Assembly (NCBI GenBank): GCA_948146395.1
Contig: OX411543.1
Location: 72,716,948 to 72,780,947 of the forward strand
DNA length: 64,000 nucleotides
Direction: 5' to 3'
From: Fragum whitleyi
Lineage: Eukaryota > Mollusca > Bivalvia > Cardiida > Cardiidae
This document shows, one piece after another, positions 35,063 through 49,489 of the stretch (the first letter of the stretch is position 1; every line of letters begins with the position of its first letter). The notes beneath the pieces are model-generated. The model was not told the DNA's origin. It did not search any database and worked only from the letters and a program-made list of their open reading frames with translations. The position numbers and the translations under genes are program-made.

Positions 35063-35445
35063 GCTCTATCAACTGCTTGATCCGAGTTAGGATTAAGGAC
35101 CTCGGGCATTTCTACCATTCTATGATTACTAATTTCGTCATCGCCATAATGATAAATTACAAGTAGATAATGTGTTAGTTACAAGGAACTATTACATTTC
35201 CCGTTGCCGACCATGATTATAAAAGTCTACATATTTTCCTCAAAAATTGATAAGGGTACATTCTTATATCAAATTGATGAAACATTTGATGCGCATAAAA
35301 AATTCTAATTAGAATACCTTATGAGCCCTTTAATCAATGAGTAATGATTTCGTTTTCAAGATAGCCTTCCCTACCCGCCAAATAGTACAGCCTCTTACAA
35401 CGAATACACTGTTTGCTAGAAATTGTCCATTTAAGAGCCTGAATA

Positions 35446-35451
35446 TACCAA
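35446..35451. repeat. Polinton target-site duplication, left
   Basis: TACCAA directly before the element. The six bases after the element (48579-48584) are TACAAA, five of six identical. Polintons are known to make 6-bp target duplications. Confidence 0.7.
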
Positions 35452-35460
35452 AGTAGTAAT

Positions 35461-35498
35461 GGACGATACCCTACGGACTGGTCCGTAGAGTGTCGTCC
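35461..35498. repeat. Sub-terminal hairpin in left TIR
   Basis: Arms GGACGATACCCTACGGAC and GTCCGTAGAGTGTCGTCC pair at 16 of 18 positions around a TG loop, 9 bp from the element end. The right TIR copy (48532-48569) pairs at 17 of 18. Conservation at both ends suggests a role at the termini, such as integrase or replication-protein recognition. Confidence 0.75.
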
Positions 35499-35523
35499 AG
35501 ATTTTGGGGTGGGTATTTGTGGA

Positions 35524-35700
35524 TTTGGACTTAGTCTTTTCACAGAAATGTTAACTTAGGCTTGTAAGGAATATGCGTGCGGACTTAGTATTTTTACGAA
35601 ACATGTGAAACTCGGCTTGTGAGTTATTTGCATGTGGACTTGGTCTTTTTACAAGAAATGCGAGTTGGTTTGTGAGAAATTTACATGTGGACTAAGTTCC
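35524..35700. repeat. ~54-bp iterons in left TIR
   Basis: Successive units each contain GTGGACTTAGTCTTTTTAC-like, GAAATG, AACTCGGCTTGTGAG-like and a closing TTTGCATG-like segment. They start near 35524, 35579 and 35633, with a partial fourth at 35687. The mirror set lies at about 48330-48506. Confidence 0.65.
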
Positions 35701-35830
35701 TATCTTACCGTTCAAAGACGGAAAGATAGGGACTTGGTATAGGGACTTTGTCTTTGAAATAAGTGGTTGAATGTATTGTGAAAGTGAGGAATGCAAAGGG
35801 GACTTTGACAATTTGCGAAAGAAAATGAAT

Positions 35831-35864
35831 TCTTTCTTGATGTTGGGTGGTCCTGAAAAGGATC
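35831..35864 (-). terminator. Histone-type mRNA 3' processing signal, left TIR
   Basis: Read on the minus strand: GATCCTTTTCAGGACC (35849-35864), then ACCCA, then CAAGAAAGA (35831-35839). This is the order of metazoan replication-dependent histone genes: a six-base-pair stem with a TTTC loop, the cleavage context ACCCA and the U7-binding downstream element. One stem position is A opposite C, where the right copy has a proper pair. It lies 33 nt after the stop codon of the 115-codon gene, the usual distance in histone genes. Confidence 0.85.
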
Positions 35865-35897
35865 GTTTTTGTTGATTGATAGTTCTACTATCATATT

Positions 35898-36245
35898 TTA
35901 GAAGTGACTGCAACCGAATCGTGCATTGCAAATTGGACAATGTCTCCTCATTCTTTTCCTCATGACCAATGTTTCTCCATTCCATACCACTCTTCTCCTA
36001 AATTGAGTACCCATGTAAATGACATCAGGTAGTCCTCTGTTTAGTTGTTCTGTTGTCCTACCCAAGATGGGTCTATCCAAGTAAATGACATCTTGCAGAT
36101 CATTCGTTGGTGTCTGCTCAACGGCATTTTCTTGTGGAGAAATGATTTGAGTATCTCTAATCATTCCCTGCACGCGATACAGTCGCTCAGCAATGTTCAC
36201 CAATTCCTTTGCTATATCGGTGAGTTCTCTACGAATCGGTTCCAT
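35898..36245 (-). CDS. Left outward-facing terminal gene, small Zn-knuckle-like protein (115 aa)
   Basis: Intact minus-strand frame of 115 residues, the last gene before the left TIR. The N-terminal half is helical (about residues 1-30). The middle repeats DVIYLDRPILGR and DVIYMGTQFRRR about 22 residues apart, also visible as a DNA repeat around ATGTCATTTAC. A basic stretch MRKRMRRH leads into CPICNARFGCSHF, a C-x2-C-x5-C-x-H arrangement that could bind zinc. I do not recognise the family. A TATA box (36281-36288) and an upstream module shared with the 214-codon gene precede it. The stop is 33 nt upstream of a histone-type 3' stem-loop. Position and signals suggest a regulatory protein made separately from the capsid genes. 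That role is inference. Confidence 0.75.
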   Translation of the reverse strand: MEPIRRELTDIAKELVNIAERLYRVQGMIRDTQIISPQENAVEQTPTNDLQDVIYLDRPILGRTTEQLNRGLPDVIYMGTQFRRRVVWNGETLVMRKRMRRHCPICNARFGCSHF

Positions 36246-36280
36246 GATCTAGAATGTTAAAGAGTGGAAAATCTGCTATG

Positions 36281-36288
36281 TATTTATA
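36281..36288 (-). promoter_or_regulatory. TATA box of the 115-codon gene
   Basis: TATAAATA on the minus strand, 36 bp upstream of the ATG at 36245, immediately downstream of the shared upstream module at 36296-36369. Confidence 0.6.
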
Positions 36289-36295
36289 TTGACGA

Positions 36296-36369
36296 CGCGG
36301 ACCTTGCTGGAAGCACCTCTACTTTGAATTGAAGAAAAGGATGCCGAGATGGAAATTTGTGTTTTCTCC
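36296..36369 (-). promoter_or_regulatory. Shared upstream module, left copy
   Basis: Read on the minus strand it starts GAGAAAACACAAATTTCCAT, continues CTCGGCATCC, CAAAGTAGAGGTGCTT and ends CAAGGTCCGCG. The same order with few changes is found at 47341-47411 upstream of the 214-codon gene. These two outward-facing genes are the only genes with it, so it is a candidate activator or replication-coupled element. Confidence 0.75.
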
Positions 36370-36500
36370 AAGCATGAAAATATGAGATTACTCATTATTC
36401 TCTATCATGAAACCGATTCTCTTTACCTTTATCATGAACAATCATGAGAAGGATGGAATATTTAATGACAACAAAACACAAATATTTACATTTTCTATAT

Positions 36501-36506
36501 TTTATT
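36501..36506 (-). terminator. AATAAA polyadenylation signal after the minus-strand capsid array
   Basis: CAATAAAATA on the minus strand, about 80 nt after the apparent true end of the protease gene (36584). It shows that the array has an ordinary polyadenylation signal, unlike the outward-facing genes. 36370-36500 holds no ORF, only repeats of ATCATGA. Confidence 0.55.
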
Positions 36507-36583
36507 GAACAATGAACTGTGAACTAAGAACAAAAATGAACAATCATGAACATATTTACAATCAATTTTATATTACAAAATGT

Positions 36584-37062
36584 CTATACAATTCTGCTAA
36601 ATGTCTGTATGAACCACGATGTGACTACTCTGTCATTTTTGTGTAAGTTCCTTGTGCTGAATGTCTTTCTTAGAAGTTTTTTAAAGTTGTATCCTCTTGC
36701 TACCCCATCCAAGGCAAAAATACAATAGTGTCCACAAACTTTTCCAAGGATGCTTTGAATAGGTTGGTTATTATAAGTCCATAACGTGAATTATTTTGGA
36801 TAAAATGAGATATTTCCCTATAAAGTGGAGGAAGACCGTATGAGTCAAAGTACATTGCTTTACCATTTGGATAGAATATAACTGCTACCCAATGTTCTCC
36901 TGAGTTGTGTGAATCTGCTGTATTGATGATATAAGCCTTCACATATGAAGGTTTTCGCTTTGGTAATAAATCCTTTGCACACACTCTTCCATTGAGTTTT
37001 TTAATCCACACTCCACGATCCAAGATTTGTTGAATTTCACTGGTGTACATTATTGATCCCAA
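36584..37062 (-). pseudogene. Adenain-type cysteine protease (Polinton PRO), frameshifted
   Basis: Maturation protease related to adenovirus adenain, expected to cleave capsid precursors. The first ~100 codons (37062 to about 36775) are open and contain SGEHWVAV, with the catalytic histidine, and YFDSYG, with the acidic residue. That frame ends at 36700 without a catalytic cysteine. Beyond about 36,775 the neighbouring frame carries the expected cysteine box (CGHYC) and a basic tail, ending at the TAG at 36584-36586. A single-base frame difference near 36,768-36,778, beside a short homopolymer, accounts for this. As read, the product lacks its nucleophile and would be inactive. The start overlaps the upstream gene by 13 nt. 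Either true decay or a sequencing indel is possible. Confidence 0.85.
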
Positions 37063-37502
37063 GACTGCTTTACTTTCTCACTCCAACGTTCTAGCCATGT
37101 ACCTGTGAATCCACACAAAATGTTCTTTTTTATACTTTGCCATAGTCGATACGCTTCTACTGATTCTTGTTCGTTTAGTTTTAATTCTTCAAGTTGTGGA
37201 TACCATGCCTGCATTATTTTGTATGGATTTACTTTAAGCATTGCTTGCTCAATGAACAAGTCTGTATGTTCTTCTCTACTTATGAATAAGCAAACAGGGT
37301 GTTCTATCTGACTCGGATGATCTATTTGACACCCGTTACAATTGTTATGAACTTCTTCTTTGATAAGTTCTTGCAGTTGATCCACCATACACTTTTGAAA
37401 ACTGTTGTGAAAGTCATTTTTACGAACTGGTTCAATGTTTGATGAATATTTCACTTTCTCTGCTTCTTCTCTAAGTTTTATTGCGTACTGGTATCCAAGC
37501 AT
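37050..37502 (-). CDS. Conserved Polinton protein with C-x2-C/H-x2-C cluster (150 aa)
   Basis: Intact frame of 150 residues between the major capsid and protease genes. At residues ~53-72 it has NNCNGCQIDHPSQIEHPVC, a probable zinc-binding cluster of two cysteines, two histidines and a further cysteine. The N terminus is a charged helix (LREEAEKVK). The C-terminal third is rich in tryptophan and aromatic residues (AYRLWQ, GTWLERWSEKVKQSW). Similar small proteins with a cysteine/histidine cluster occur beside the capsid genes of other Polintons as I remember them. The function is unknown. It starts 6 nt after the capsid gene and its end overlaps the protease start by 13 nt, so the three are tightly packed. 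Confidence 0.75.
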   Translation of the reverse strand: MLGYQYAIKLREEAEKVKYSSNIEPVRKNDFHNSFQKCMVDQLQELIKEEVHNNCNGCQIDHPSQIEHPVCLFISREEHTDLFIEQAMLKVNPYKIMQAWYPQLEELKLNEQESVEAYRLWQSIKKNILCGFTGTWLERWSEKVKQSWDQ

Positions 37503-37507
37503 GATGT

Positions 37508-38851
37508 TTAGTAATCAGTGATAACTTCTCTAAGACTGTTGATTTCGATTTGATTATCGAATTCAGCGAAAACAATAACGTTGATGACTCTAGCAAGGTT
37601 AGATCCAAACTGAAGTTCTATTCTCATGCCTCCAGTTTTTATGGGATGCAATTGTCCTTCTTCACTGCCTTGATCTGGTGTGAGATCAAACCCCCAAAGA
37701 GCGAATCCAACATCATATTCCTCTTTTGTTATACCAAATGATTTGTCAGCACCAATGGATTTTGTGGCATTGAACAAAGACAGATATGATCTCAGTGTTA
37801 GTCCATTTGTGAAGTTAGGTTCAAATGGTTTACCATGAATACTGTGTCCGTTGCATGATACGCCTATTTTTCTTACGTTGAAATGGGAAAAGTTGAATGG
37901 GTTTGATGTATAAGTTCCATTGGAGGCCCCATTTGTTACCATTCCAATAAAAACACGTTTTGGTAACTGTCCTTGGAACAAATGATCTTCCACTTTTGAT
38001 AGAGTACCGTCAGTGATTGAAAATGTTTTGACTTCTACTCTACGAATAGGGATTTTCATGTTATTCTGTGCTATAAGTTGGTTCAGATTATTTGCAACTA
38101 CTGGTGACAATTCAACATTTCTTACATGGAAACTTACTGATTCAAACTGAATTTCGACTTTTGGTTCACCTGCATGTTGAATAATGCAAAATTCTGGACG
38201 TGACTTTTTTAATCTTAGTCTGATTTCCACTCCATTGGGAAGATATTTTTCCTGGAGAAAAACATCTAGATGAAGACGACCAAATAATTCCACTGTCTTA
38301 CTTTCTGCAATAGCAGCTATTCGTTGTTTAGTCCCTTCGTTATTTCCCTCGGCTTGAGCATCGTTCATATGTCCTGCTGTGTCTTTAATCCAGAGTTCTC
38401 CTGCTCTCAAATGAGTTCTCTTGCTTTCTGGACTATATGACAAAAGGTTTTCAATGTAGCCTCTGTATGGATAATTATTTGATCCACTGGTTATTAGTTT
38501 GTTATTCAGGTACAGATCTATGTTACTGAACATACTATGTAAGAAATTATTGACTGGTGCAATGTTAGCACCATCTGCTAAAGGTGAACCATCTGCTGCT
38601 TGGATAATTTTAAAGTTAACATACAGAAAGGACTGTGATAAATCCGTCCAAAACTCTGTCTGAGGTGGTATAATAAATTCTATTGGTGAAACATTTGCAA
38701 TTGATGCAACTGGAAAATGTTCAACCCATTGAGATTCCTGCATGCTTGTCATGGTAGGAGGTACTGATAATACATCTAACTCAGTTTTACTACACTCACA
38801 TGATCCACTTTGCATCATCTTTTTTGGACTTTTTACAAAAATGTTAATCAA
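37508..38851 (-). CDS. Major capsid protein, double jelly-roll (Polinton MCP)
   Basis: Intact 447-residue frame, the right length for the Polinton major capsid protein, which is predicted to form hexon-like trimers of two jelly rolls. Family-typical segments are IIPPQTEFWTDLSQSFLYV (about residues 60-78), NFLHSMFSNIDLYLN (about 102-116), PYRGYIENLLSYS (about 127-139) and NPFNFSHFNVRKIGVSCNG (about 316-334). The frame overlaps the upstream basic-protein gene by 8 nt. Methionines 12 and 13 are alternative starts that would remove a basic N-terminal segment. It has no stop or frameshift although neighbouring genes do. Its product would assemble with the minor capsid protein and be filled by the packaging ATPase. 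Confidence 0.93.
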   Translation of the reverse strand: MINIFVKSPKKMMQSGSCECSKTELDVLSVPPTMTSMQESQWVEHFPVASIANVSPIEFIIPPQTEFWTDLSQSFLYVNFKIIQAADGSPLADGANIAPVNNFLHSMFSNIDLYLNNKLITSGSNNYPYRGYIENLLSYSPESKRTHLRAGELWIKDTAGHMNDAQAEGNNEGTKQRIAAIAESKTVELFGRLHLDVFLQEKYLPNGVEIRLRLKKSRPEFCIIQHAGEPKVEIQFESVSFHVRNVELSPVVANNLNQLIAQNNMKIPIRRVEVKTFSITDGTLSKVEDHLFQGQLPKRVFIGMVTNGASNGTYTSNPFNFSHFNVRKIGVSCNGHSIHGKPFEPNFTNGLTLRSYLSLFNATKSIGADKSFGITKEEYDVGFALWGFDLTPDQGSEEGQLHPIKTGGMRIELQFGSNLARVINVIVFAEFDNQIEINSLREVITDY

Positions 38852-39224
38852 AAATGTCTAATGGTCTGGCTGACTTTTGGTTAGTTTGATGTTTCTTTGA
38901 CGTGATCTTACCACGGCGAGGTCGAGAATGAGAATGATGTGCATTGCTTGATTCCTTTCCATTTATACTCGATAACAACTTGTTAGTCAAATGTTTCAAG
39001 GATTGTTTTCCTCTTGACATGAGAACTTTCTTGGGCTTTTTACGATGCACTAAAATGTCTTTCGCTATTCCTAATCCTTGTTTAATACCTTCATCTTTTA
39101 TTGCATGTAGTCCTGATTTCACTCTAGGTTTTATTAGTGGTGTTACTGATCTTAATGCAGATTTAAACAAAGACCCTAAGCCAGAACCATATTGATGTTG
39201 AACGCCTCTATAAACAGGCACCAT
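38844..39224 (-). CDS. Small basic virion protein (126 aa), adenovirus pX/core-like
   Basis: Intact frame between the minor and major capsid genes. The N-terminal part has YGSGLGSLFKSALRSVTPL, a glycine-rich amphipathic helix, followed by KSGLHAIKDEGIKQGLGIAK. The C-terminal half is strongly basic (HRKKPKKVLM, SRPRRGKITSKKHQTNQK). A short protein with a GLGS-type amphipathic helix and a basic tail next to the capsid genes is usual in Polintons and adintoviruses, where it has been compared with adenovirus core peptides. DNA condensation inside the capsid or membrane activity are both plausible. A poly-T run (39226-39237) separates it from the minor capsid gene. Confidence 0.7.
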   Translation of the reverse strand: MVPVYRGVQHQYGSGLGSLFKSALRSVTPLIKPRVKSGLHAIKDEGIKQGLGIAKDILVHRKKPKKVLMSRGKQSLKHLTNKLLSSINGKESSNAHHSHSRPRRGKITSKKHQTNQKSARPLDIFD

Positions 39225-39235
39225 GTTTTTTTTTT

Positions 39236-40147
39236 TTATTTTTGATTTTCTTTGCGCTTACGAAAATGCAACTTTACTATTGTCTTGCCAATGACAAACT
39301 GAATAGGATGACCAGAATCACCTGTTATATTAATGTGAATGGAATCAAAATCTGATTTTGAAACTGGGAAATAATGTGGAGCAATAATTTCATGATTAAT
39401 ATGTTGACTTCCATTATCATTTTCAATGGAATTAGATGTTTTAAAAGGTACAACTCGAAGTATTGGAACTAATGTATCACCAACAATGGAATATTCAACA
39501 ATGTCTGAATATACAAATAAATGATTATAACCTGCATCAATGTTTGGTGAATATTTAAACATTTCAAAAACACTCTTTCGCTTGTAAATTGTTTTACCAT
39601 CAAAAATAGGATCACCACCAAGTTTTTGAAATAATGATTTATTGAATTCTATTCCAGTTTTATTAATATTTCTGAATTCAAACTTTGGACGTTTTGATGA
39701 TTCAGAATATCCAACATGAATAGTTGCACTACTATCATGAAGCACTTTTCCAATTTCATCATCAATGCATTCATTGACTACATCTAACACATGAGATGGT
39801 GAATTGTAAGATCCAGGTGTGAAACGAAATTTGATTGCCCATTTCATATCATGGCCTGTTGAATTAGTTTTAAGGGCAGTGATTTCTAATGAAGAGGGTT
39901 TTCTTTTATTTTCTTCAAAAATCTTTTTGTAGATACCAGTATCTGTCGTAATGATATCAAACCTTGCTTCTTCTTCACTGATATTTAGGAATTGACTTGG
40001 TGTTATCAATTGTGCAAGTGCAACTTCCCAATCTTCCTTATCAATATGAACAGTCTTAGGCAATTTAACTTTAAAACAACATTGAGTGTTTGTAGGAAAA
40101 TAGTTCAAAGAACTATCACTAGGCAAAGTTATGTAGAAGGAATTCAT
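39236..40147 (-). CDS. Minor capsid protein (penton-type, Polinton mCP)
   Basis: Intact 303-residue frame. It opens MNSFYITLPSDSSLNYFPTN and continues CFKVKLPKTVHI and WEVALAQLITPSQFLNI. This is the family-typical start of Polinton minor capsid proteins, predicted to be penton-like single jelly rolls at the five-fold vertices. The C-terminal part has YSIVGDTLVPILRVVPF followed by SDFDSIHINITGDSGHPIQF, also conserved. It starts within the stop codon of the membrane-protein gene (ATGA, 40144-40147). No breaks are seen. Together with the 447-residue protein it supplies a full capsid shell. Confidence 0.9.
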   Translation of the reverse strand: MNSFYITLPSDSSLNYFPTNTQCCFKVKLPKTVHIDKEDWEVALAQLITPSQFLNISEEEARFDIITTDTGIYKKIFEENKRKPSSLEITALKTNSTGHDMKWAIKFRFTPGSYNSPSHVLDVVNECIDDEIGKVLHDSSATIHVGYSESSKRPKFEFRNINKTGIEFNKSLFQKLGGDPIFDGKTIYKRKSVFEMFKYSPNIDAGYNHLFVYSDIVEYSIVGDTLVPILRVVPFKTSNSIENDNGSQHINHEIIAPHYFPVSKSDFDSIHINITGDSGHPIQFVIGKTIVKLHFRKRKENQK

Positions 40148-40431
40148 TTTTTACCATCAATGAAATCAAATGCTGAATGTTTATTCTGTTTTGTGAATTT
40201 TAATCCGGATGATGGTAAAATGTAGCCTAAGGAACTACTGAGAAGAATTAACCACAATTCACGATTGTCACTTTGAATACTGAGATGTACTATAGATGTA
40301 GCAATAATGGCATAAATGACTATGATTTGTGAAACATAAGTAAACTGATTTTTAGGAACACGATTTCCAAAACATGTAAAAGGAGTTGACTGACTGACAC
40401 TGTCACCTCCAGATTCCAACTGAGATTGCAT
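40144..40431 (-). CDS. Small membrane protein (95 aa), conserved in Polintons
   Basis: Intact frame with an N-terminal polar part (residues 1-30), then two hydrophobic stretches: FTYVSQIIVIYAIIATSIVHL (about 30-50) and LWLILLSSSLGYILPSS (about 59-75). The signature TYVSQIIVIY...LW-LLSSSLGYILP recurs in many Polintons next to the minor capsid gene. The stop overlaps the ATG of the minor capsid gene by 4 nt. A role in virion membrane association or cell exit is possible, but nothing in the sequence proves it. Confidence 0.8.
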   Translation of the reverse strand: MQSQLESGGDSVSQSTPFTCFGNRVPKNQFTYVSQIIVIYAIIATSIVHLSIQSDNRELWLILLSSSLGYILPSSGLKFTKQNKHSAFDFIDGKK

Positions 40432-40440
40432 GATAATTAC

Positions 40441-41560
40441 TTAAGTTTTTATAAGTTTTTTCAAATCACATTTAATATGATTCTGGTATCCAACTCTGAA
40501 ATTTTTAGGATAACCTTTCCAATTGACTTTGATTTCTTTGATTATGTTTTTACCTTCACGTCTCGTTCGCTTATCAAGAACTAAATCTATTTCATAAACT
40601 TCATCATCTTTTATAAGTTGTAATTCTTGTTCATAAAATGACCCAAGGATAGGTTCATTTGCTAGATCTTTAATTTTATATGTGATTGGAGATGTTTTTG
40701 AATTCACATAAGTGATTTCAAATAATTCTTGTGTCCAATTTGGAAGATATCCTTTCTCAAATGTATGTTTTGTTTTATTGATACGAACACGATCACCTTT
40801 CTTTAATTTTGGTTTCCTTTTTATCTTTTTGCAAACTTTTGTTTCACTTTTTGCATATAAGTTCTCTGAAATTTTTGCTTCATTAGAATGATTAACATCT
40901 GATGGGTTTGCTTTAATGCTCCGGTGAAAAGTATTGTTATAATTATTCACAAAGTTCTGAAGAACATCAATATATCTTCGTGTTTTTTATGAGTGAAATA
41001 TTTCCACATTCTAGTTTTCAACGTACGTTGAAATCTTTCCACAATACTTGCTTTAGTCTCTGGATTATCTGTAGTGAAATAATGGATCTTTTTCTTTTTC
41101 AAAAACTTTTGAACGTCTTGGTTTTTGAACTCACTTCCTTTATCTGTTTGTAATGATAAAGGTTTTCTTGATTTATCAGTGTTTTCCCCATCTTATTTTT
41201 GATAGGCACAACCCATGCAAATTTTGAAAAGACATCAATAACACAAAGTAAATATCTAAAATCATTATTATGCTTTGAAACTTGTTGCATGTCTGCTAAA
41301 TCAGCTTGCCATTGGTGATCAATTCCTGTTATAATTGTTTTACGTCTATGAAATTTTCTTCGAATCGGTTTATGTAAGGTGTATGTTGATTCCCCTTGTA
41401 ACCATTTTTTAACATCTTGATATGATATGTTTTTCAAAATGGATTTCGCTGCTTTGTATAATTCTTTTATGCTTGAATATGCAACTTTATTTTTATTTAA
41501 TCCATAATATAATTTTCTCAACAGTGCATCTTTGGACTTACGCTTCAGTATGCCTCCCAT
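40441..41560 (-). pseudogene. Retroviral-type (rve) integrase with C-terminal chromodomain-like segment, two frameshifts
   Basis: The Polinton integrase inserts the linear element and makes the 6-bp duplication. The gene is read in three pieces. 41560 to about 41175 gives an N-terminal helical and HTH-like part, then DHQWQADLADM, with the first catalytic aspartate, and CVIDVFSKFAW. A one-base shift near 41,175 moves to a frame with the TDKGSEF box (second aspartate) and the glutamate helix around VERF. A second one-base shift near 40,975 leads to the open 40950-40441 stretch with an SH3-like part and a chromodomain-like end (EIDLVLDKR ... VNWKGYPKNF). Both shifts sit beside A runs. All catalytic residues are present but not in one frame. 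Confidence 0.88.
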
Positions 41561-41709
41561 GACTGAAGACTTTTAGAAATTGAATCTTTTTTTATAGGAC
41601 TTAAAAGTTGTTGAGTGTAAAGATCTTTTCTTTTTTCTTTTTCATGAGTCGTGGCATATGGTGACATTTTTCTTAAGTGGCTTAAGGTTTTCTTCTTTAT
41701 GGTTTTCAT
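41545..41709 (-). CDS. Small basic ORF (54 aa) before the integrase
   Basis: ATG at 41707-41709, TGA at 41545-41547. The frame begins MKTIKKKTLSHLRKMSP and contains KEKRKDLYTQQLLSPIKKDS. It overlaps the integrase start (41560) by 16 nt in another frame, the same compact style as the other junctions. No family is recognised. It could equally be the leftover end of a longer gene. It is reported because a ~170-nt gap would be unusual in this array. Confidence 0.35.
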   Translation of the reverse strand: MKTIKKKTLSHLRKMSPYATTHEKEKRKDLYTQQLLSPIKKDSISKSLQSWEAY

Positions 41710-41727
41710 TTTGGTTGGAGATCTTAC

Positions 41728-42401
41728 TTAACTTCTGACGGGGGATTTAAAGGGTGTACTAAAACTTATTTCTGATTCACTAGATTCACTTTCAGGCTGA
41801 TATTTTTGCAACCATTGCCATCTTGACATGTTTCCAACTACTTCTTGTGGAACATTGCTTTCATGTAAAGCTTTAGAGAATACTTCCCAACCTCTAGGTT
41901 CAATTCCTTTTGTCTTACGTAATGAATCATTTATGAGATCAATGATATTTGAACCTGGAATAGGTTTTCCTTTATATGTTACCATACCTTGATTATCCCA
42001 TGATATGCTATCATTATCTCTAAGAATATTTAACAGAAGCTTAGCTTTTCTCTGCATGGTTTTAGGTACACTTTCTAGGATACGATCATGCAATGAAACA
42101 CATTTATTAAATCTGATTTTGGATCCACCTCTTGAATTTTTGAAGATTGGGGTAATGTCGGATGTTTCACCTTTTCAAATGAATTTTGTAGTTTGAACAA
42201 TGTTTCTCCATACTTTTGTGCTTTATCTGTTTCAGAGATATCAGTTCTTTCTAATGTATTTTTCATATCCTTATATAGGTGGATATCATTGGTTACTTGT
42301 GGATTTTGTGGTAAAATAGGTGTTTGATTTTGTTCATCCCTCCATTGCTTCATATCATTAAGTACTTGAAAAGGAACAATGACCATTTTTCTTACTGACA
42401 T
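41728..42401 (-). pseudogene. Conserved Polinton protein of unknown function, one frameshift
   Basis: Two frames that belong together. 42401 to about 42095 opens MSVRKMVIVPFQVLNDM and has a coiled, charged middle. After about 42,090 the other frame continues with VPKTMQRKAKLLLNIL, then ISWDNQGMVTYKGKPIPGSN, IIDLINDSLRK, PRGWEVFSKALHESNVPQEV and a Ser/Glu-rich end. The pattern W(D)-x-G ... G-x-x-I-x-GSN ... GW-x-x-F ... NVP is familiar from Polintons, where this protein of about 220 residues lies near the GGFL protein. The function is unknown; a scaffold or virion role is possible. A one-base shift in the AATAAATGTG context breaks it. The second piece alone begins with ATG at 42093. Confidence 0.75.
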
Positions 42402-42414
42402 TTTTATCCTAAGA

Positions 42415-42786
42415 TTATAAGGCTTTTAATGCACCACCATTACCTCCAATGATAGCTTTACCTAATAATGGTATTAATGCAGACCCTAACAATGGGAGAA
42501 ATCCTCCCTTCTGATTCAAAATGCGTTTCTTCTTTTTTACAGACACTGATTTTGAAGCAAGATTTCGAAGATGTTGACGGTTTGAATACAACTTCTTCTT
42601 CTGAGCATCTGTTAGGTGTATATTGCCTTTTAAAACATTGTGACAACATTCTGATATACATCTTATCACTGGAGATGATCATTTTTTAACTAATTTTTTT
42701 CTTAGCTTCGGTGAAGATTTCATTAATGCCATGACCATATGACCATGTTTCCTAATTAAAGGAACTTTCTTTATTTTTTTCACCAT
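42415..42786 (-). pseudogene. Polinton GGFL small virion protein, interrupted by an in-frame TGA
   Basis: From ATG at 42784-42786 the frame encodes 35 basic residues (MVKKIKKVPLIRKHG start, KLRKKLVKK end). It meets TGA at 42679-42681 and continues in the same frame with CISECCHNVLKGNIHLTDAQ, RQHLRNLASK and QKGGFLPLLGSALIPLLG to the stop at 42415. Polinton relatives are continuous over this position and have the same ending: helix, 'LR-LA', lysines, then GGFL plus a hydrophobic tail. The protein resembles adenovirus small capsid-interior proteins in size and amphipathic tail. A start at GTG 42669 is unlikely in a eukaryote. The break looks like a single substitution. Confidence 0.75.
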
Positions 42787-42846
42787 GTTATCACTTCTTC
42801 AGATAAATCATAAATGATAAAGAACGTGTAATATCAAAAGTATTTA

Positions 42847-43740
42847 TTAGGTAGAAAATTTTTCTCGTATTGCTGTAAGAGCTATTCTAGCTGGAGAAGA
42901 TACATTTCTCATATCCAAAGTTGTTAAGGGTGAAAAAAGTGCAATTCCATATTTTCTGTTTCTAAGTTTCTGCTGACTTGATTTTGACATACGTTGTGGT
43001 GAAATGAAATCATTGTCATAACTTGAATCAGAGGTTGAACTTGAGATCGGGGTTGAAAAACGGGCAGATGAATTCGGAGACAAAGAACTTGATAAGAATG
43101 AAGGTGGAGACATATGCATTGGTGTTTGTGGTGAATGAATTGATGAAATGGGGGAAACATTTGGTGTAACATTTGTTGATGACATTTTAGAAAAAGGTCT
43201 ATGTGATCTTCTCATTGTAATGAACCTTTCATCAATTGAGAATTTGTTTTTTGATTTCTTTGGAGAATTTTTCTTTTTTCTTTTAACAGAATTTTTCTTT
43301 GGTGATTTTCTTTTAACAGGTTTTTTATCATGTCCAAATTTTCTTGCAGTTCTTTCCCCATCCCATCTAAGAAGACTTCTACTTATTACACCACCAAGAA
43401 AACCACCACCACCGGGTCTCAATATGATTCTACGTTTTACTTGTTCATTAATGTTTGGATCTGCAAGCTTGGCTACATCATCTCTATGTTTATTCATATA
43501 TGTAACAAAATGCTTTGGTAGCTTGATTCTATTTTCAATGATATTTTGTGCTGCCAAAGAAAACCATTTCAATATTTCCTTTAAACCAGCATTCAATAAT
43601 GCTTCTCTTTCACACTTTTTTGTCTGTTTTCCTAAATTCTGTAAAGCTTGAATCACTGATGTAGATGTTCTCGGTAAGGCCATCTTCACACAATGCCATA
43701 GATCGATAGACTGGACTTGAATGATCATAAGATCACCCAT
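42847..43740 (-). CDS. GGFLG-domain protein fused to an SPKK-rich basic tail (297 aa)
   Basis: Intact frame just downstream of the ATPase; its ATG directly abuts the ATPase stop. Methionine 20 (MALPRTSTSV) is the likelier start. Residues ~35-130 carry a helical segment (LKEILKWFSLAAQNIIENRI), charged MNKHRDDVAKLAD and then KRRIILRPGGGGFLGGVISR. This is the same helix-basic-GGFL layout as the neighbouring 42415-42786 gene. Residues ~140-170 are histone-tail-like (KRKSPKKNSVKRKKKNSPKK). Then come ~100 Ser/Pro-rich residues and a basic end (SPARIALTAIREKF). It is probably an internal virion protein that binds DNA. The SPKK motifs are potential minor-groove binders and CDK sites. The link to histone tails is by motif only. 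Confidence 0.7.
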   Translation of the reverse strand: MGDLMIIQVQSIDLWHCVKMALPRTSTSVIQALQNLGKQTKKCEREALLNAGLKEILKWFSLAAQNIIENRIKLPKHFVTYMNKHRDDVAKLADPNINEQVKRRIILRPGGGGFLGGVISRSLLRWDGERTARKFGHDKKPVKRKSPKKNSVKRKKKNSPKKSKNKFSIDERFITMRRSHRPFSKMSSTNVTPNVSPISSIHSPQTPMHMSPPSFLSSSLSPNSSARFSTPISSSTSDSSYDNDFISPQRMSKSSQQKLRNRKYGIALFSPLTTLDMRNVSSPARIALTAIREKFST

Positions 43741-44406
43741 TTATACAGGTGAATAAATAATTGGACCTTGATCTTCATTCTTTGTATACCATCTATGAAA
43801 TATATCAGTTCTTAACCTCAATACTTTTTGAGTTCGAGAATGAAAATCAATGACCAAATAACCATGAGGCGAGGATGTTGCATCATTGTACGCAGGAATC
43901 AAGTGTGGGGCTTGCATTTGATTTGCTAGAGTCTTTATTTGGTTATTATCACGTTCATTGCGATAAAATATCATATACATTGTATTTAAACTAATGGTTC
44001 TACTTGATTTTGACTGTGAAAAAATGTTTTGTGTTATATAGATGACACTTGCATTACGATGATGACCTTTTCTAGTAAACCATAATTTAATTTTCTCTTC
44101 ATCCTTTTCTCCTAACATATCATCAAATATTACCAAATGTGGTATAGATGCATCACTTACAATTTCATTTTCATCTTCAGGTATTCCGTCAATGAAAGTA
44201 ATGAAATCAAGTTTTTCTTTCATGATACTGTATGCATTTTGCCATTCTTTATAACACCAAGTAATTCTTTTTGGTGCAATGGTAAATAAGTCTTCACGAT
44301 AATCTATCAGTTTATGAACGAATTCTGTTTTACCACATCCACTTGGACCAGAAATGAAAATATTACAAGGATGGTTAAACAAGAGGGAGAAAATATCTTC
44401 ATCCAT
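43741..44406 (-). CDS. FtsK/HerA-type DNA-packaging ATPase (A32-like)
   Basis: Intact 221-residue frame. Walker A is GPSGCGKTEF at about residues 19-28. Walker B is HLVIFDDML at about 89-97. A sensor-like YITQNIF follows at about 123-129. The SGPSGCGKTEFV start, the KEWQNAY segment and the MQAPHLIPAYNDATSSPHGYLVIDF region are typical of Polinton ATPases, which pump the genome into preformed capsids. It is complete, so the element retains packaging capacity on paper. It is the first gene after the AT-rich tract (44460-44760). Its stop is contiguous with the next ATG. Confidence 0.93.
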   Translation of the reverse strand: MDEDIFSLLFNHPCNIFISGPSGCGKTEFVHKLIDYREDLFTIAPKRITWCYKEWQNAYSIMKEKLDFITFIDGIPEDENEIVSDASIPHLVIFDDMLGEKDEEKIKLWFTRKGHHRNASVIYITQNIFSQSKSSRTISLNTMYMIFYRNERDNNQIKTLANQMQAPHLIPAYNDATSSPHGYLVIDFHSRTQKVLRLRTDIFHRWYTKNEDQGPIIYSPV

Positions 44407-44459
44407 TTCTTACGTCCTTACCATTCAATGGGTAGAAATAAAATGACAAAGATATATTC

Positions 44460-44765
44460 ATTTTTATAACTTTTATTAAATTTTTTTTTGAAACATAAAA
44501 CATTCTTTTACAACATTTTTTACAATTACATATTTACAATTTCATTTTTTTTTTATTTTCTTAAAAACATTTTTAAAAAAAAAAAAATTCAAAAAACATT
44601 TTTGAAAAATATTTTTCAAAAAATATTTTCGAAAAAAGTTTTTTGAAAAATATTTTTAAAAAAATATTTTTAAAAAATATTTAAGAAAAATATTTTCAAA
44701 AAAGTTTTTTTTTAAAAAATCACAACTTTTATTTTTCAAAAAACAAAATCAACAACAAGTTTTTA
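44460..44765. other. 300-bp AT-only palindromic tract
   Basis: Almost pure A/T, with staggered inverted words AAATATTT, GAAAAATATTTTTC, TTTTTTGAAAAA and AATATTTTCGAAAA. An AATAAAA on the minus strand (44471-44477) could polyadenylate the 129-codon gene. It separates the 45.5-44.8 kb genes from the ATPase. Terminator, origin or slippage-expanded spacer are all possible. Confidence 0.6.
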
Positions 44766-44774
44766 AACAGTTCG

Positions 44775-45164
44775 TTAGTTATGATTAAATTCACCTTTAA
44801 GTCCACTTATCCATTTCAAATAATGATTCAATATTGATTCGGATAGTATAATACTTGTCTTTCCTACTTCACGATTTCCTAATTCATATGGAAAGAAGAA
44901 TGTTTTACTATCCGTTTTGTAATTCACTTCATTGACAGGAAGCACTCTACATGATGAAACTGTGGAGGCCACTATTTCTTTGCTAACATCTCTGTCAAAT
45001 ATGACGATTCCCTCTATTGCTTTAACTTCTTCAACAGTAGTTGGAGTAGTTCGATAATTCACATGATCAATCCATGTCTTTCTATACAACATGTAAAAGT
45101 TAAATTGTTTAGCTTTTCTTTCAAGTTTCTCAATGAATTCACTACATGTTCTCCCATTTCGCAT
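44775..45164 (-). CDS. Unrecognised element gene (129 aa)
   Basis: Intact minus-strand frame, 18 nt downstream of the F-box-like gene. It has an alpha/beta look: a charged helix at the start (CSEFIEKLERKAKQFNF), the hydrophobic strand EEVKAIEGIVIFDRDVSKEIV, and later TFFFPYELGNREVGKTSIIL, then a helix SILNHYLKWISGL. I cannot assign a family. There is no signal peptide or membrane segment. Codon use resembles the flanking Polinton genes. It lies between the polymerase remnant and the ATPase, a place where Polintons often carry lineage-specific genes. An AATAAA lies about 300 nt downstream. Confidence 0.55.
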   Translation of the reverse strand: MRNGRTCSEFIEKLERKAKQFNFYMLYRKTWIDHVNYRTTPTTVEEVKAIEGIVIFDRDVSKEIVASTVSSCRVLPVNEVNYKTDSKTFFFPYELGNREVGKTSIILSESILNHYLKWISGLKGEFNHN

Positions 45165-45182
45165 TGGTGTTTTAAATGTCCA

Positions 45183-45485
45183 CTAATATGTATCTCTATC
45201 TCTCCAAAAGTAGAAGTTATTAAGTAAGACACTTGTCAACACTTTTATTTCACTATCGTCGAACTGTGAATCGTTTATCATGTCCTGTGTATATGCTCTC
45301 ATTTTAAACAGTTCTATTGCAGGCTGATCTTTCGTGATTCCATTTTTCATCTTTCGAATCCACATTGATATACAAACTACTTTCATTCTTTCTTGTATAT
45401 CTTTATCCAATGTATGATATCCGATGAATATCTTGTAGATCTTTTCACGTAACTCAATTGGTAGTGGAAGTTGATAAGGCAACAT
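45183..45485 (-). CDS. F-box-like small protein (100 aa)
   Basis: The open frame runs from 45539, but the methionine at 45485 (MLPYQLPLPIELREK) is preferred because a TATATAC-like TATA box lies about 30 bp before it. Residues ~5-42 read LPLPIELREKIYKIFIGYHT, then LDKDIQ, then MKVVCISMWIRKM. The spacing LP-x2-L-x3-I ... L ... VC-x3-W matches the F-box, the ~45-residue motif that recruits substrates to SCF ubiquitin ligases. The rest is helical without known repeats. DNA viruses often carry F-box proteins to redirect host ubiquitination, so this is a reasonable guess. The match is by eye and other helical proteins could imitate it. Confidence 0.5.
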   Translation of the reverse strand: MLPYQLPLPIELREKIYKIFIGYHTLDKDIQERMKVVCISMWIRKMKNGITKDQPAIELFKMRAYTQDMINDSQFDDSEIKVLTSVLLNNFYFWRDRDTY

Positions 45486-45559
45486 TTTGAAATTTACCGT
45501 AGATAAATAGTATATAATAGATGTCAGAAATGTTATCATCTTACAGTTCTTTAATCATT

Positions 45560-45738
45560 TTTCTCATTTATAGAATTGTCTATAAGATGTAATAATCGTG
45601 AAATCTCTTTTTCTAGTTCATTCCTAATAATGTTTTGTCTTACAAAATCATGTGATAAGTACAATACCAAATGAACTAAAACAATCAATGTTTTCTAAGA
45701 GACAGGATCAATATCTTAATGTACAGTGTTCAGCTTGT
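45560..45738 (-). other. Short open stretch without ATG between polymerase remnant and F-box-like gene
   Basis: A frame reading LIVLVHLVLYLSHDF then NELEKEISRLLHLIDNSINEKND ends just before the F-box-like gene. It has a hydrophobic segment and a heptad-like helix but no start codon. It may be the end of a deleted gene. Confidence 0.3.
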
Positions 45739-46440
45739 TCACAAGAAATGATATCCCTCTAAAAGTTTTATTTTTTTTATACTCCTTATGCTTGAATGTC
45801 CAAATGGGGCAGTATCTATATCATTGCCAATTACTTTCTTTGTATAGACCGATCCGTACTTTGATCCTGCATACATTTTGTAAATGCATCGAAATTGACC
45901 AACTTGCAAGTTTTGTAGTCTAAGGTTATGCCCTTGACTTTACATTTACTTTCAATATCACAATCTTTGGTAACCAATTGATATGCATAGTTTTTTGGAC
46001 CCAACCCTCTGAACTTTAAAATTTGTGATTTGGATTCTTCATCGATCCATTTTCCCAATCTACTATTGATAATTGGTGGATTCCATAACTGTGGGTCATG
46101 AATGTACATGCAACTATCAGTTTCAAAAGTACAACACTCTATCATTCAGTTTTTCTAGGATGCTATACAATTCAAGTTTAGCATAGGCCGTAACAAATGA
46201 TCCAACAATGACATTGGCTGTACCATAGGTCTCAACATGATCCAACTTGATTCATAGTTGACCAGAATGAATGAACATTCTTCATTGAATATTTCTACAT
46301 GTTAAATAATACAGTTATGGTTGTTGATCAGTTCAAAGTATTTTGATGGTTTTGATATATACTCTGATTGAGTCAATATCTCATTTTGGATATAAAAGAG
46401 GTCAGTTTCAAAAAATTCATTCTCTGAAACCCAAACATGG
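45739..46440 (-). pseudogene. Remnant of Polinton protein-primed DNA polymerase B, C-terminal part
   Basis: Only the last ~230 codons remain, in several frames. From upstream: YFELINNH; after a stop and a shift, ANVIVGSFVTAYAKLELY (the helix before motif C) and RVLY. After a one-base shift near 46,133 comes FETDS at the motif C position, then GPKNYAY and VKGITLDYKT. After another shift near 45,850 comes a C-terminal end at the TGA 45739-45741. GPKNYAY and KVKG are hallmark C-terminal motifs of Polinton polymerases. Motif C is normally Y-x-DTDS, so the first aspartate is replaced by glutamate. Exonuclease, TPR1/TPR2, motif A and motif B regions are absent. The open frame 45831-46145 is part of this relic, not a separate gene. 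Confidence 0.85.
46391..46398 (+). promoter_or_regulatory. TATA box for the 46,437 plus-strand gene
   Basis: TATAAAAG followed 12-17 bp later by GTCAGTTTC and 46 bp later by the ATG at 46437. It overlaps the antisense polymerase remnant, so the promoter was built into, or survived within, old coding sequence. Confidence 0.6.
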
Positions 46441-46674
46441 ACTCTGAAAAAAATTCGATCAATTGCGATCATTTACACCAGGCACCCTCCACCATCGCAA
46501 GTTTTGCTTCTTGAGCAAATCCAGTATAGCGCTAGGAAGGGGCCGTGTGCTTGGACACCGAAAATGACAGATGACTGGGTGTGGTATGAATTCATGGCAC
46601 CCATTGGACAGCCAAGGAGAGAGAGAGTTCACCCAAACATTCCTGATATTTACAGGGAAGAATACTGGGATTAG
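46437..46674 (+). pseudogene. Short unknown gene with histone-type 3' end (about 79 codons, one frameshift)
   Basis: A TATA box leads to ATG at 46437. The first frame reads MDSEKNSINCDHLHQAP and meets a stop at about 46513. From the CAGGCACCCTCCACC stretch onward another frame is open: PPSQVLLLEQ, then ARKGPCAWTPKMTDDWVWYE, MAPIGQPRRER, PDIYREEYWD and TAG at 46672-46674. The distance is one base off a multiple of three, so a one-base shift explains it. The tryptophan/aromatic- and proline-rich C-terminal part matches nothing I know. The stop lies 24 nt before a perfect histone 3' stem-loop, which is the main reason to regard this as a gene. The frame may have been intact recently. Confidence 0.5.
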
Positions 46675-46697
46675 AGTCTCTTTCCTCTAGAATAAAC

Positions 46698-46713
46698 GGC
46701 CCTTTTCAGGGCC
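46698..46713 (+). terminator. Histone-type 3' stem-loop (perfect)
   Basis: GGCCCTTTTCAGGGCC, identical to the metazoan histone consensus GGYYYT-THTH-ARRRCC, 24 nt after the TAG of the preceding short gene and preceded by AAAC. Unlike the TIR copies it is followed by AATCC rather than ACCCA, and I see no CAAGAAAGA within 30 nt. Confidence 0.8.
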
Positions 46714-47062
46714 AATCCTTATTGCATGAATGCATCCATTTCTCAAATTGTCACATTTAAAATACACCGAACATAACCCGTATAAAGTATTCAGGATGTA
46801 TTTACAGGATTTCATAGACCCAATATCGCATTTTCAAATAAATTCAACAATACGCTTAGTCAAGTAAAACAATGCTTCACTTGCGAGTTTAATCCACCCA
46901 TCTACATTAAATATCGATTTTTATCTGACATGTACACCGATACCAATTTCATATCGGAGTTTACATTTTAAAGCGATAGGCAACCGGTTTTAAATCAGCG
47001 TGTTTCAAAAAGTCGCGTTAAGATTGAATAATGATAAGATTTCAACTCTTTTTCAGTCGAAA
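46714..47062 (+). other. Gene-free spacer in the right part of the element
   Basis: Begins with the palindromic words TTGCATGAATGCATCC. A TATAAAG occurs at about 46775. No open frame of interest and no clear match to Polinton polymerase on either strand; the deleted polymerase presumably lay around here. Confidence 0.5.
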
Positions 47063-47341
47063 ATGATAAAAATGACAAGTAATACATCTCAGCTAACATT
47101 ACCAGTCATCAAAATAGAAATAAAATCAGTTAAAAGTAGAAAACAAAGGAAAAAACATTGGATCTACAGCAGAAATTCACCGTCAATTTCGAAAGTTTAT
47201 GCGAATTTATTCCTCACGTTCAATAATTGTGCGAAGAACTTAATGGAAATGATAAAAGAAAAGGTTAACAAAACGTTTGAGATAGAAAATATTTACGTTT
47301 TCTTCATCATAAAGAAGAAATTTGAGAAAAATCATCACTGA
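47063..47341 (+). CDS. Basic helical ORF (92 aa), faint H2B-like pattern
   Basis: The frame is open from 47000 but its first ATG is 47063. The N-terminal half is basic (IKSVKSRKQRKKHWIYS). Then comes a long amphipathic stretch SPSISKVYANLFLTFNNCAK followed by NLMEMIKEKVNK. Lys/Arg-rich start, a Ser-rich turn with ISK and a long alpha-2-like helix recall histone H2B. The region equivalent to H2B alpha 1 is missing and identity is low, so this is a weak suggestion. It ends exactly where the shared upstream module of the 214-codon gene begins and has no stem-loop of its own. It may be non-coding. Confidence 0.3.
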   Translation: MIKMTSNTSQLTLPVIKIEIKSVKSRKQRKKHWIYSRNSPSISKVYANLFLTFNNCAKNLMEMIKEKVNKTFEIENIYVFFIIKKKFEKNHH

Positions 47342-47411
47342 GAAAACACAAATTCCCATCTCGACGTCCATTTTACTTGTCAAAGTAAAGATGCTTTCGC
47401 CAAGGTCCGCG
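47341..47411 (+). promoter_or_regulatory. Shared upstream module, right copy
   Basis: GAGAAAACACAAATTCCCAT, then CTCGACGTCC, CAAAGTAAAGATGCTT and CAAGGTCCGCG. It matches the inverted module at 36296-36369 with about ten substitutions and one small indel. Between it and the TATA box the right copy has an extra CCTACAATGTAGG palindrome. Confidence 0.75.
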
Positions 47412-47434
47412 CGCCCTACAATGTAGGCTAACAG

Positions 47435-47441
47435 TATAAAA
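47435..47441 (+). promoter_or_regulatory. TATA box of the 214-codon gene
   Basis: TATAAAA, 51 bp upstream of the ATG at 47486, leaving room for a short leader of about 20-25 nt. Confidence 0.65.
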
Positions 47442-47485
47442 CTTCATCAGTCGTTCGTCAACCTCCGAAGCGAACACACGCAAAA

Positions 47486-48130
47486 ATGAATTCAGATTTC
47501 AATTTACAAGAAATCATGTCTCAGGCAAATATCACACACGATGATTTGCTAGCATCAGCCATGGATTCAACATTTGGATCGCAGAGTTGTCAGATACTTG
47601 GACCTCAGGAGAATTCATCAACAATTCAACAGAATTACCAACCAGTGAGTACCAATGATGTTGTTCTTCAAAACATCCTAGCTGAATTGAAAACCATGAA
47701 TTCGCGACAAGAAGCTATCATGATAAAAATTATTGCGGAGCTGAATACCTTCAACAAATCTTTTTTGGATTTCAAGTCACTGACGGAGAGAATACAGATT
47801 CTTTACCAAAATGTTCAAAAATTGTGTCAACAATCATCATCTCCAGTCACATTCAGACCAACACCGGTGAAGATTCCAGTTGAATTTGACTTCGAACAAA
47901 CGAACTTTCACAAACTCGCAGATAGTATTATGACTGTGATGAAAAAGAAGCAATCGTCACACACTTCATCCACCAAGAGATCATCATCATCAACGGAAAA
48001 TGTTCGTCCAAGTAAAAGACATTGTTCAGAAAAAGAGAGGGGATACAAAATTCCTACAATGCCAGGGATGGGTGCCTGCGGCAAAAACATCGATAACTTC
48101 AAGAAACCAAAGACCAAAAAGAAGTGCTGA
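47486..48130 (+). CDS. Right outward-facing terminal gene, coiled-coil/basic-tail protein (214 aa)
   Basis: Intact plus-strand frame, the only sizeable rightward gene of the element. Residues ~1-40 are acidic and polar. Residues ~55-115 form a likely coiled coil (VVLQNILAELKTMNSRQEAI ... FKSLTERIQILYQNVQKLCQ). Residues ~150-214 are Ser/Lys-rich with NLS-like groups (STKRSSSSTENVRPSKRH, KKPKTKKKC). No family is recognised. The layout suits a nuclear oligomeric DNA- or chromatin-binding regulator, which is inference. The promoter comprises the shared upstream module and a TATA box. The stop codon is at the inner edge of the right TIR, 33 nt before a perfect histone 3' stem-loop. The mirror gene at 35898-36245 has the same upstream module and 3' end but an unrelated protein. 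Confidence 0.8.
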   Translation: MNSDFNLQEIMSQANITHDDLLASAMDSTFGSQSCQILGPQENSSTIQQNYQPVSTNDVVLQNILAELKTMNSRQEAIMIKIIAELNTFNKSFLDFKSLTERIQILYQNVQKLCQQSSSPVTFRPTPVKIPVEFDFEQTNFHKLADSIMTVMKKKQSSHTSSTKRSSSSTENVRPSKRHCSEKERGYKIPTMPGMGACGKNIDNFKKPKTKKKC

Positions 48131-48162
48131 GATGAATAGCAGAACAATCAACCAACAAAAAC

Positions 48163-48196
48163 GGTCCTTTTCAGGACCACCCAACACCAAGAAAGA
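48163..48196 (+). terminator. Histone-type mRNA 3' processing signal, right TIR
   Basis: GGTCCTTTTCAGGACC (48163-48178), a perfect six-base-pair stem with TTTC loop, then ACCCA, then CAAGAAAGA (48188-48196). This agrees with stem-loop, cleavage context and U7-pairing downstream element of animal histone genes in sequence and spacing. It sits 33 nt after the stop of the 214-codon gene. Confidence 0.9.
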
Positions 48197-48531
48197 ATTC
48201 ATTTTCTTTCGCAAATTGTCAAAGTCCCCTTAAAGCATTCCTCACTTTCACACATACATTCAACCACTTATTTCAAAGACAAAGTCCCTATACCAAGTCC
48301 CTATCTTTCGGTCTTTGAACGGTAAGATAGGGACTCAATCCACATGTAAATTTCTCACAAACCAACTCGCATTTCTTGTAAAAAGACGAAGTCCACATGC
48401 AAATAACTCACAAACCGAGTTTCACATGTTTCGTAAAAAAACTAAGTCCGTACGCATATTCCTTACAAGCCTAAGTTCACATTTCTGTGAAAAGACTAAG
48501 TCCAAATCCACAAATACCCACCCCAAAATCT

Positions 48532-48569
48532 GGACGATACTCTACGGACCAGTCCGTAGGGTATCGTCC
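48532..48569. repeat. Sub-terminal hairpin in right TIR
   Basis: Arms GGACGATACTCTACGGAC and GTCCGTAGGGTATCGTCC, 17 of 18 pairs plus one G-T, loop CA, 9 bp from the element end. Confidence 0.75.
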
Positions 48570-48578
48570 ATTACTACT

Positions 48579-48584
48579 TACAAA
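48579..48584. repeat. Polinton target-site duplication, right
   Basis: TACAAA, versus TACCAA on the left. Confidence 0.7.
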
Positions 48585-49489
48585 TACTTATCCCATTTTG
48601 CTTCTGAATTGTGAAATTAATGTAAATCGCCTAATCCTAATGAATAAATCTGATCTGGATATGTTATTGACCAATCAGGGGCTGTTCCTATCTTTTTATA
48701 CACCCGTCGAAGACTTTTTCAATGTCCGATTTTCTTGAAACTTGGCAGTTATATTTTTACTTTACCGGTCACTCCATAGACAAAATGTGACAGATGGTGT
48801 GAGATAAGGTTAGGAACATCGTTAAATTTACGAGTTGAATGAATTGGGAATGGTTTAGCATTGAAATAATAAGAACGCGGAGCGATTTTTGTGTGATTTT
48901 CAAAGGAGGTAAATCGTAATCTATAATTTCGTCAGATGTTTTACCTCCCTTTGATAAAAATCTACTTATTTTTCTGATTTTTAGGTCTTCGCAGTCAAAC
49001 CAGTCGTTTGAAAATTATCATTAGCCAATAAAATCATGCATTAACTGATCGATTTGATTAAAATATTGACAATTTTGAACGGTTGTGGTGTTTTTTTGAA
49101 CGATTTTGGAGCGTTTCTAAGTGGTTTGAGAATGCTTACAGATGCGTCAAGCCATTTATAGTTCTGTGACTGTGATTCATTGTAGAAGACAAGCGAGCAG
49201 TTTGTTTAAATCACATTTTGATAGCATCGGAAGGCTTGTTTAAAGGCTTAGAAGCCGCTCTTGATCTCAAATCCATTGAAAGAACCTACGCAAGCAATTG
49301 TTCGGTCAAATTAAGTCAAACTTCATCATTTTTTAGAGCTAAATGCATCTTCCACTTCGAGTTATCCCGTATTATTGCCTCCGCAAAGTTTAAAGCACTG
49401 TTCCGCTTCAATGGCTCGTCAAGCCCATGCTATTTTAGCATAAAATATAATTAAATGAACAGTTTTTCTGAAACAAGGCAAAAATCATA
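48585..49489. other. Host flank; no gene seen
   Basis: AT-rich. Contains a 12-bp inverted pair AAAGGAGGTAAA/TTTACCTCCCTTT (about 48902-48955). The 78-codon frame at 49218-49454 has no recognisable features. Confidence 0.45.

Follow-up and report, generated by a model that had tools for sequence, protein, structure and literature searches.

The 3′ ends of replication-dependent histone mRNAs are formed at a stem-loop, to which SLBP binds, and a downstream element, to which the U7 snRNP binds, with CPSF73 cutting between the two; the resulting mRNAs are non-polyadenylated and present mainly in S phase. In metazoans they are held to be the sole class of mRNA without poly(A) tails, according to the abstract of PMC12775136. 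Hairpins also set the mRNA ends of a virus, Mimivirus, but there, as described in the abstract of PMC4402537, a viral enzyme cleaves the transcripts and the ends are polyadenylated, whereas the signals described here, from a Polinton of a clam, match the histone system of the host.

The window analyzed in this study is a stretch of 64,000 nucleotides (64 kb) from the bivalve Fragum whitleyi. It contains an element that shares with Polintons/Mavericks (adintoviruses) its terminal inverted repeats (TIRs), AGT...ACT ends and an A32-type ATPase, along with putative adenain-like protease and rve/chromodomain integrase pieces and a capsid candidate (Table 1). What distinguishes the family from the descriptions of these elements that we surveyed is a set of accessory genes with histone-type promoters and 3′ ends. 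Our data, drawn from a single genome, indicate that the small accessory genes of this Polinton (adintovirus-like) family very probably resemble replication-dependent histone genes in their promoters as well as in their 3′ ends.

Table 1. Features of the Polinton-type element in the window (positions within the 64-kb stretch).
Feature	Position	Strand	Evidence or remark
Polinton-type element, 13.1 kb	35452..48578	.	termini AGTAGTAATGG...CCATTACTACT; shorter than other copies
Left TIR	35452..35891	-	about 440 nt
Right TIR	48136..48578	+	about 440 nt
Terminal hairpin, left end	35460..35499	-	one unpaired position in window copy
Terminal 18-bp hairpin, right end	48531..48570	+	8 nt from element end
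Major capsid protein candidate	37508..38818	-	603 homologues; Mercenaria 62%, oysters about 44%
A32-type packaging ATPase	43741..44406	-	Pfam Pox_A32 25.1 bits, cut-off 22.8
Adenain-like protease fragment	36700..37077	-	Peptidase_C5 E 0.0013, below cut-off; frame broken downstream
Integrase pieces, interrupted	40441..41572	-	rve E 0.0018, chromodomain E 0.0087; both below cut-off
115-aa gene, CPIC...C-x-H C-terminus	35898..36245	-	ORF
79-aa gene relative	46437..46674	+	frame broken in window copy; intact in other copies
214-aa gene	47486..48130	+	pI 9.3, basic C-terminus
M1 (TGCTTCC-N5-GGTCCGCG)	36296..36315	-	TATA 7 nt on; 115-aa side
M1 (TGCTTTC-N5-GGTCCGCG)	47392..47411	+	TATA 23 nt on; 214-aa side
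Stem-loop of 115-aa gene, left TIR	35849..35864	-	one broken pair; Rfam match 35823-35869, 28.2 bits
Left-TIR downstream element CAAGAAAGA	35831..35839	-	sequence
Internal stem-loop GGCCCTTTTCAGGGCC	46698..46713	+	Rfam match 46693-46739, 27.3 bits; AATAAA at 46691
Histone-type stem-loop of 214-aa gene	48163..48178	+	Rfam match 48158-48204, 37.5 bits
Downstream element CAAGAAAGA	48188..48196	+	9 nt past stem; same spacing at host H2B and H2A and at the histone gene preceding H4

The element, its copies and its small genes

The TIRs of the window copy are ~440 nt long and align in two blocks, 35451-35776/48254-48579 (97%) and 35796-35891/48136-48231 (95%). The flanks of this one copy, TACCAA and TACAAA, are identical at 5 of 6 positions and may represent a 6-bp target site duplication. 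The protein that we take to be the major capsid protein (MCP) has no Pfam or PDB match. Among 120 listed of its 603 homologues most were unnamed, and the named ones were from Mercenaria and oysters, besides one bacterial bin and “hypothetical” entries, in keeping with a bivalve as the most likely host. For the protein-primed DNA polymerase B, a comparison with one polymerase-like tubeworm ORF gave no significant match in the window copy or in the end pieces of longer copies (best E 0.36). In a scan of prokaryote genomes, an MCP relative was found on one tubeworm-symbiont contig of 3.6 kb, on which a polymerase-like ORF was recognized by eye and a Histone3 match was absent. Five scans of viral contigs, three with protein queries (the MCP, the ATPase and an alignment of the MCP) and two with stem-loop patterns, found no relative.

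The family has more than 100 copies in its own genome (1.22 Gb), where at least 96 places encode the capsid candidate with 94–100% identity, 89 of them without an internal stop (96 of 324 candidates were scored). Five pairs of outward-pointing Histone3 matches were 17.8 kb apart; the window pair, at 12.3 kb, is a shorter member. Within C1:72752398-72840277, both TIRs and the capsid gene of the window element are present a second time, shifted by 74,751 bp, with the right TIR and the capsid protein 100% identical, representing a duplication. Eight nucleotides in from each end of the element is an 18-bp hairpin whose arm letters vary widely between the window copy and L011, L014, L017, L039, L050, L051, L056 and L107 while complementarity is complete or nearly so, a pattern that reflects either strong covariation or a fold-back in which one arm is copied from its partner. 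The element also contains A/T-rich tandem repeats (44504-44767) of ~13–14 nt, with palindromic units.

In the end pieces of longer copies, four small genes (115, 214, 79 and 122 aa) were found, each consisting of a short, continuous ORF followed by a histone stem-loop. The 115-aa gene is at one TIR and the 214-aa gene at the other, and the 79- and 122-aa genes are internal and divergent. The 122-aa gene was not seen in the window copy, and the 79-aa frame is broken there, yet its stem-loop is kept. The 214-, 115- and 122-aa proteins are basic (pI 9.3–9.6) and the 79-aa protein is not. In the protein collection no homologue of the 214-aa protein reached E<=1e-3, and the 115-aa protein had two homologues. 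Values of pN/pS, calculated from full-length ORFs only, a choice that favours low values, were 0.17 for the capsid candidate (20 copies), 0.27 for the 115-aa gene (14 copies), 0.39 for the 214-aa gene (8 copies), 0 for the 79-aa gene (3 copies) and 0.77 for the 122-aa gene (only 4 copies, near-identical). The small proteins could be early regulators of S phase, or DNA-binding proteins whose production scales with DNA synthesis.

Histone-type 3′ signals and their conservation

The initial annotation of this DNA described a perfect stem, a loop and a downstream element, in the right order and spacing, in the TIR after the 214-codon gene. The sequence bears this out: the stem-loop GGTCCTTTTCAGGACC starts 32 nt after the stop codon and is followed by the 9-nt spacer ACCCAACAC and the downstream element. 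A covariance search with Rfam RF00032 (Histone3) returned a match in the right TIR (E 2.4e-7 in the 64-kb window) that exceeds the gathering score of 34 bits. When the whole of Rfam was compared with the window, only two matches were above gathering score, this one and one tRNA. A relaxed-threshold Histone3 search of 35001-49000 revealed two further matches, both below the gathering score. One is in the left TIR, points outward and has one stem mismatch; the other is outside the TIRs and has a perfect stem (GGCCCT/AGGGCC). These two signals, as well as the matching promoters described below, go beyond what had been claimed. In longer copies (L040/L044), the signal of the 122-aa gene scored 34.6 bits, above the gathering score, and the TIR signals of the 214-aa gene scored 32.0 bits, below it. 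Perfect stem-loops with a strict histone-consensus loop numbered two in the window, versus one in total across 400 dinucleotide shuffles of the 64 kb.

The canonical core histone genes of the host are in arrays on C6, C8, C12 and C22. The element shares with them and with replication-dependent histone mRNA 3′ ends in general a 6-bp GC-rich stem, a 4-nt U-rich loop, flanking A/ACC and a purine-rich downstream element 9–10 nt on. The distance from stop codon to stem-loop is also similar, at 23–33 nt across the four small element genes and 37 (H4), 32 (H2B) and 30 nt (H2A) in the host arrays. Stem and downstream element are 9 nt apart in the TIR signals and in three of the four host histone genes seen (H2B, H2A and the gene upstream of H4, which is H3 by position), and the TIR downstream element matches the host CAAGAAAG elements at equal spacing. 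Host H4 had no clear downstream element; at the 79- and 122-aa genes the element is weaker and lies 10 nt past the stem. At the level of sequence, then, the histone-type 3′ end proposed in the annotation agrees with the host histone genes in loop type, downstream element and spacing. The element genes differ from histone genes in having no histone match and in being inside a mobile element, within whose TIRs two of them end. A search for U7 snRNA with Rfam RF00066 gave no match in this genome and none in control genomes either.

None of the hexamers AATAAA, ATTAAA, AGTAAA and TATAAA was present between the stop codon of either terminal gene and the end of the element. At the internal gene an AATAAA starts 7 nt before the stem-loop, and given this adjoining signal its transcript could be polyadenylated.

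Related TIRs without stem-loops had been named as one observation that would speak against the annotation. The exact pattern of TIR stem-loop plus downstream element had 249 matches in the same genome and none in the reversed control; the pattern left the fourth loop base free and accepted either of two letters at both positions of the third pair, and it counts intact signals only. Among 100 listed of the 249, inspected by eye, the third pair was U-A in 93 and U-G in 7 with no mismatches, and the fourth loop base was C, U or A. When left TIRs were retrieved on the basis of their spacing from the capsid gene, the signal was present in 38 of 40 pieces, with the stem fully paired in 37, and in the remaining two it is located just outside the fetched piece according to the coordinates of the genome-wide pattern. 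Thirty of the 38 had enough flank for comparison (the string used to select them contains the left stem arm). In these, minority letters numbered 1 over the 6 sites of the right arm, 0 over the 9 of the downstream element and 6 over the 4 of the loop, with 1.8 per site in the upstream and 0.8 in the downstream flank. Across 16 distinct stem-loops from the element, other repeats and the host, 97.9% of cells were paired, which was equalled in 3 of 500 shuffles, and one stem pair was C-G in 8, U-A in 6 and U-G in 1. Of five measures computed on these stem-loops, two were not above shuffles (both-side pair changes, 369/500; pair types, 498/500).

Promoter elements shared with host histone genes

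Two promoter elements were found in common between the small genes and host histone genes. The element M1 is defined as TGCTTYC-N5-GGTMCGCG. It is common to the 115-, 214- and 79-aa genes, 7–24 nt before a TATA box, and is also present at host H2B and H1 (the gene after H2A), with the TATA box 22–43 nt on. In the loci analyzed, all 33 occurrences with distinct flanks had a TATA box within 43 nt downstream. M1 is at both terminal genes of the window copy; the internal gene there has neither M1 nor M2, the second element.

Genome-wide (1.22 Gb), M1 with its 5-nt spacer had 401 exact matches and none in the reversed control, and a variant with a 6-nt spacer had 0 (reversed control 1). Among the first 100 listed (C1-C3), 88 had Polinton-type spacers; 84 of these formed 42 outward pairs, 31 of them 16.3–16.6 or 10.7–11.7 kb apart, and one further pair, on C2, consisted of non-Polinton sites. 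The other 12 of the 100 were non-Polinton occurrences, 3 at H1 genes and 9 with no assigned gene. The three at H1 genes are on C1, ~160–230 nt upstream of a linker-histone domain, and they mark all three dispersed H1 genes found there; an H1 match at C3:57.93 Mb had no M1 among the matches listed. Two inverted M1 pairs with no gene assigned, each ~160–200 nt apart (C2:39674337/39674537 and C2:39685236/39685394), are possibly further histone-type genes. A role of M1 as an snRNA element was considered and was unsupported for U2, as nine U2 matches at C2 2.45–2.48 Mb were without a listed M1.

The host H4 promoter and the divergent promoter between the 79- and 122-aa genes have a 36-nt stretch in common, identical at 31 of 36 positions, a score reached by none of 300 shuffles. 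The best of four control promoters of the element was equalled by 37 of 300 shuffles. Local alignments of whole Polinton promoters with those of H2B and H2A ranged from weak to suggestive, with 4 to 206 of 300 shuffles scoring at least as well, and the H4 comparison was the only one to stand out. The core 21-mer of the 36-nt stretch, M2, had 25 exact matches in the 1.22 Gb. Of these, 23 fall in histone arrays (C6, C8 and C22; H4 promoters by spacing) and 2 inside Polintons; exact M2 was absent from the C12 array. With up to one mismatch there were 175 matches (control 0). Among 100 listed of these, 31 were in arrays, 66 in Polintons (63 placed through neighbouring sites of the capsid, TIR, M1 or stem-loop type and 3 by the TIR-signal pattern) and 3 were unassigned. 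The distance from M2 to M1 was 1,105–1,118 nt in 29 of 31 pairs. In the H4 promoter (L024 1-176), M2 consists of direct repeats of AGGTCA-like half-sites, with both orientations present, whose likeness to nuclear-receptor sites is presumed.

Interpretation and further carriers of the signal

The two terminal genes share one signal because their stem-loops are inside the TIRs, and the terminal signals may be kept alike by whatever keeps both TIRs alike. Transcription of the small genes also appears histone-like, because their promoter elements are shared with H2B, H1 and H4. Host histone transcription factors would express the small genes in S phase, and the SLBP/U7/CPSF73 machinery would process their mRNAs into non-polyadenylated ends. 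The mRNAs would be made when the DNA of the element can replicate and be lost once replication stops. We infer both the non-polyadenylated ends and the coupling to S phase from sequence. Such a signal is lacking at the capsid and ATPase genes of the window copy, whose transcripts presumably carry poly(A).

An alternative is that flanks of histone genes were captured by recombination and persist as neutral passengers, with transcripts reading through to poly(A) signals in host DNA. An AATAAA is indeed found outside the element at 48643, and the signals are in young, similar copies, in which some of the conservation may be due to descent. This explanation would, however, require the capture of two types of promoter and of three distinct 3′ regions, and it is at odds with the U-A/C-G exchange at one stem pair, the low variability of the right arm and downstream element relative to the flanks in the 30 left-TIR pieces, and the near-constant distance between M2 and M1. 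We consider it unlikely. The hairpin might instead act on DNA in the TIR, in replication origin function, packaging or integration, its likeness to histone signals being a coincidence. Its location and the presence of the terminal hairpin in the same repeats would fit such a role, but the signal is also found after two internal genes outside the TIRs, and the SLBP-type loop, the distance from the stop codon, the downstream element and the histone promoter motifs would be left unexplained, which makes a DNA-level role extremely improbable.

The sharing may also have run in reverse, with the histone promoters of this lineage having received M1 and M2 from the Polinton. The direction of transfer is not readable from one genome, but M1 is also at dispersed H1 genes and histone promoters are old, and for these reasons the host-to-element direction is simpler and the reverse one very improbable. 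Shared regulation would hold whichever way M1 and M2 were transferred. Small genes built like histone genes at both ends are the reading that we prefer. More broadly, a family of animal endogenous viruses has probably built a complete histone-type regulon, in which several non-histone genes combine promoter elements of the H2B/H1 and H4 types with SLBP/U7 3′ ends and, through the histone transcription and processing machinery, would give S-phase mRNAs that are invisible to poly(A) RNA-seq.

If this is true, the terminal repeats of the element double as histone 3′ ends, and an element that copies both promoters and 3′ ends would show that the histone pathway can be hijacked. It would hint at the way in which a Polinton coordinates its genes with DNA replication and explain why transcripts of the element would be missed in poly(A) RNA-seq. 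The features shared with the host would help to identify the core promoter code of histone genes in this bivalve lineage. We know of no virus or transposon that runs on the histone mRNA pathway, and this one would be the first. The annotation likewise knew of no description in Polintons or adintoviruses, and among the listed titles and abstracts of the open-access literature on Polintons/adintoviruses, on histone stem-loops and on SLBP with viruses none reports histone-type signals in these elements. In PMC11071296 and PMC11071308, “stem-loop” and “polyadenyl” do not occur; “histone” appears twice in PMC11071296, one passage being on a histone-like protein in other viruses.

Histone-type stem-loops were also observed outside the Polinton family and the histone genes. 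A second repeat family (L016, L019-L023, L054) has the histone stem-loop GGCCCTTCTTAGGGCC after an ORF, which we take to resemble KptA/Tpt1 2′-phosphotransferase. In four copies the end of this repeat is CGGTCATACTAAACTATGCCCCACGG or nearly so, and several copies have another stem-loop ~60 nt on. At L010 1501-1546, a Histone3 match of 39.7 bits, as strong as any among the matches listed, follows an unidentified ORF.
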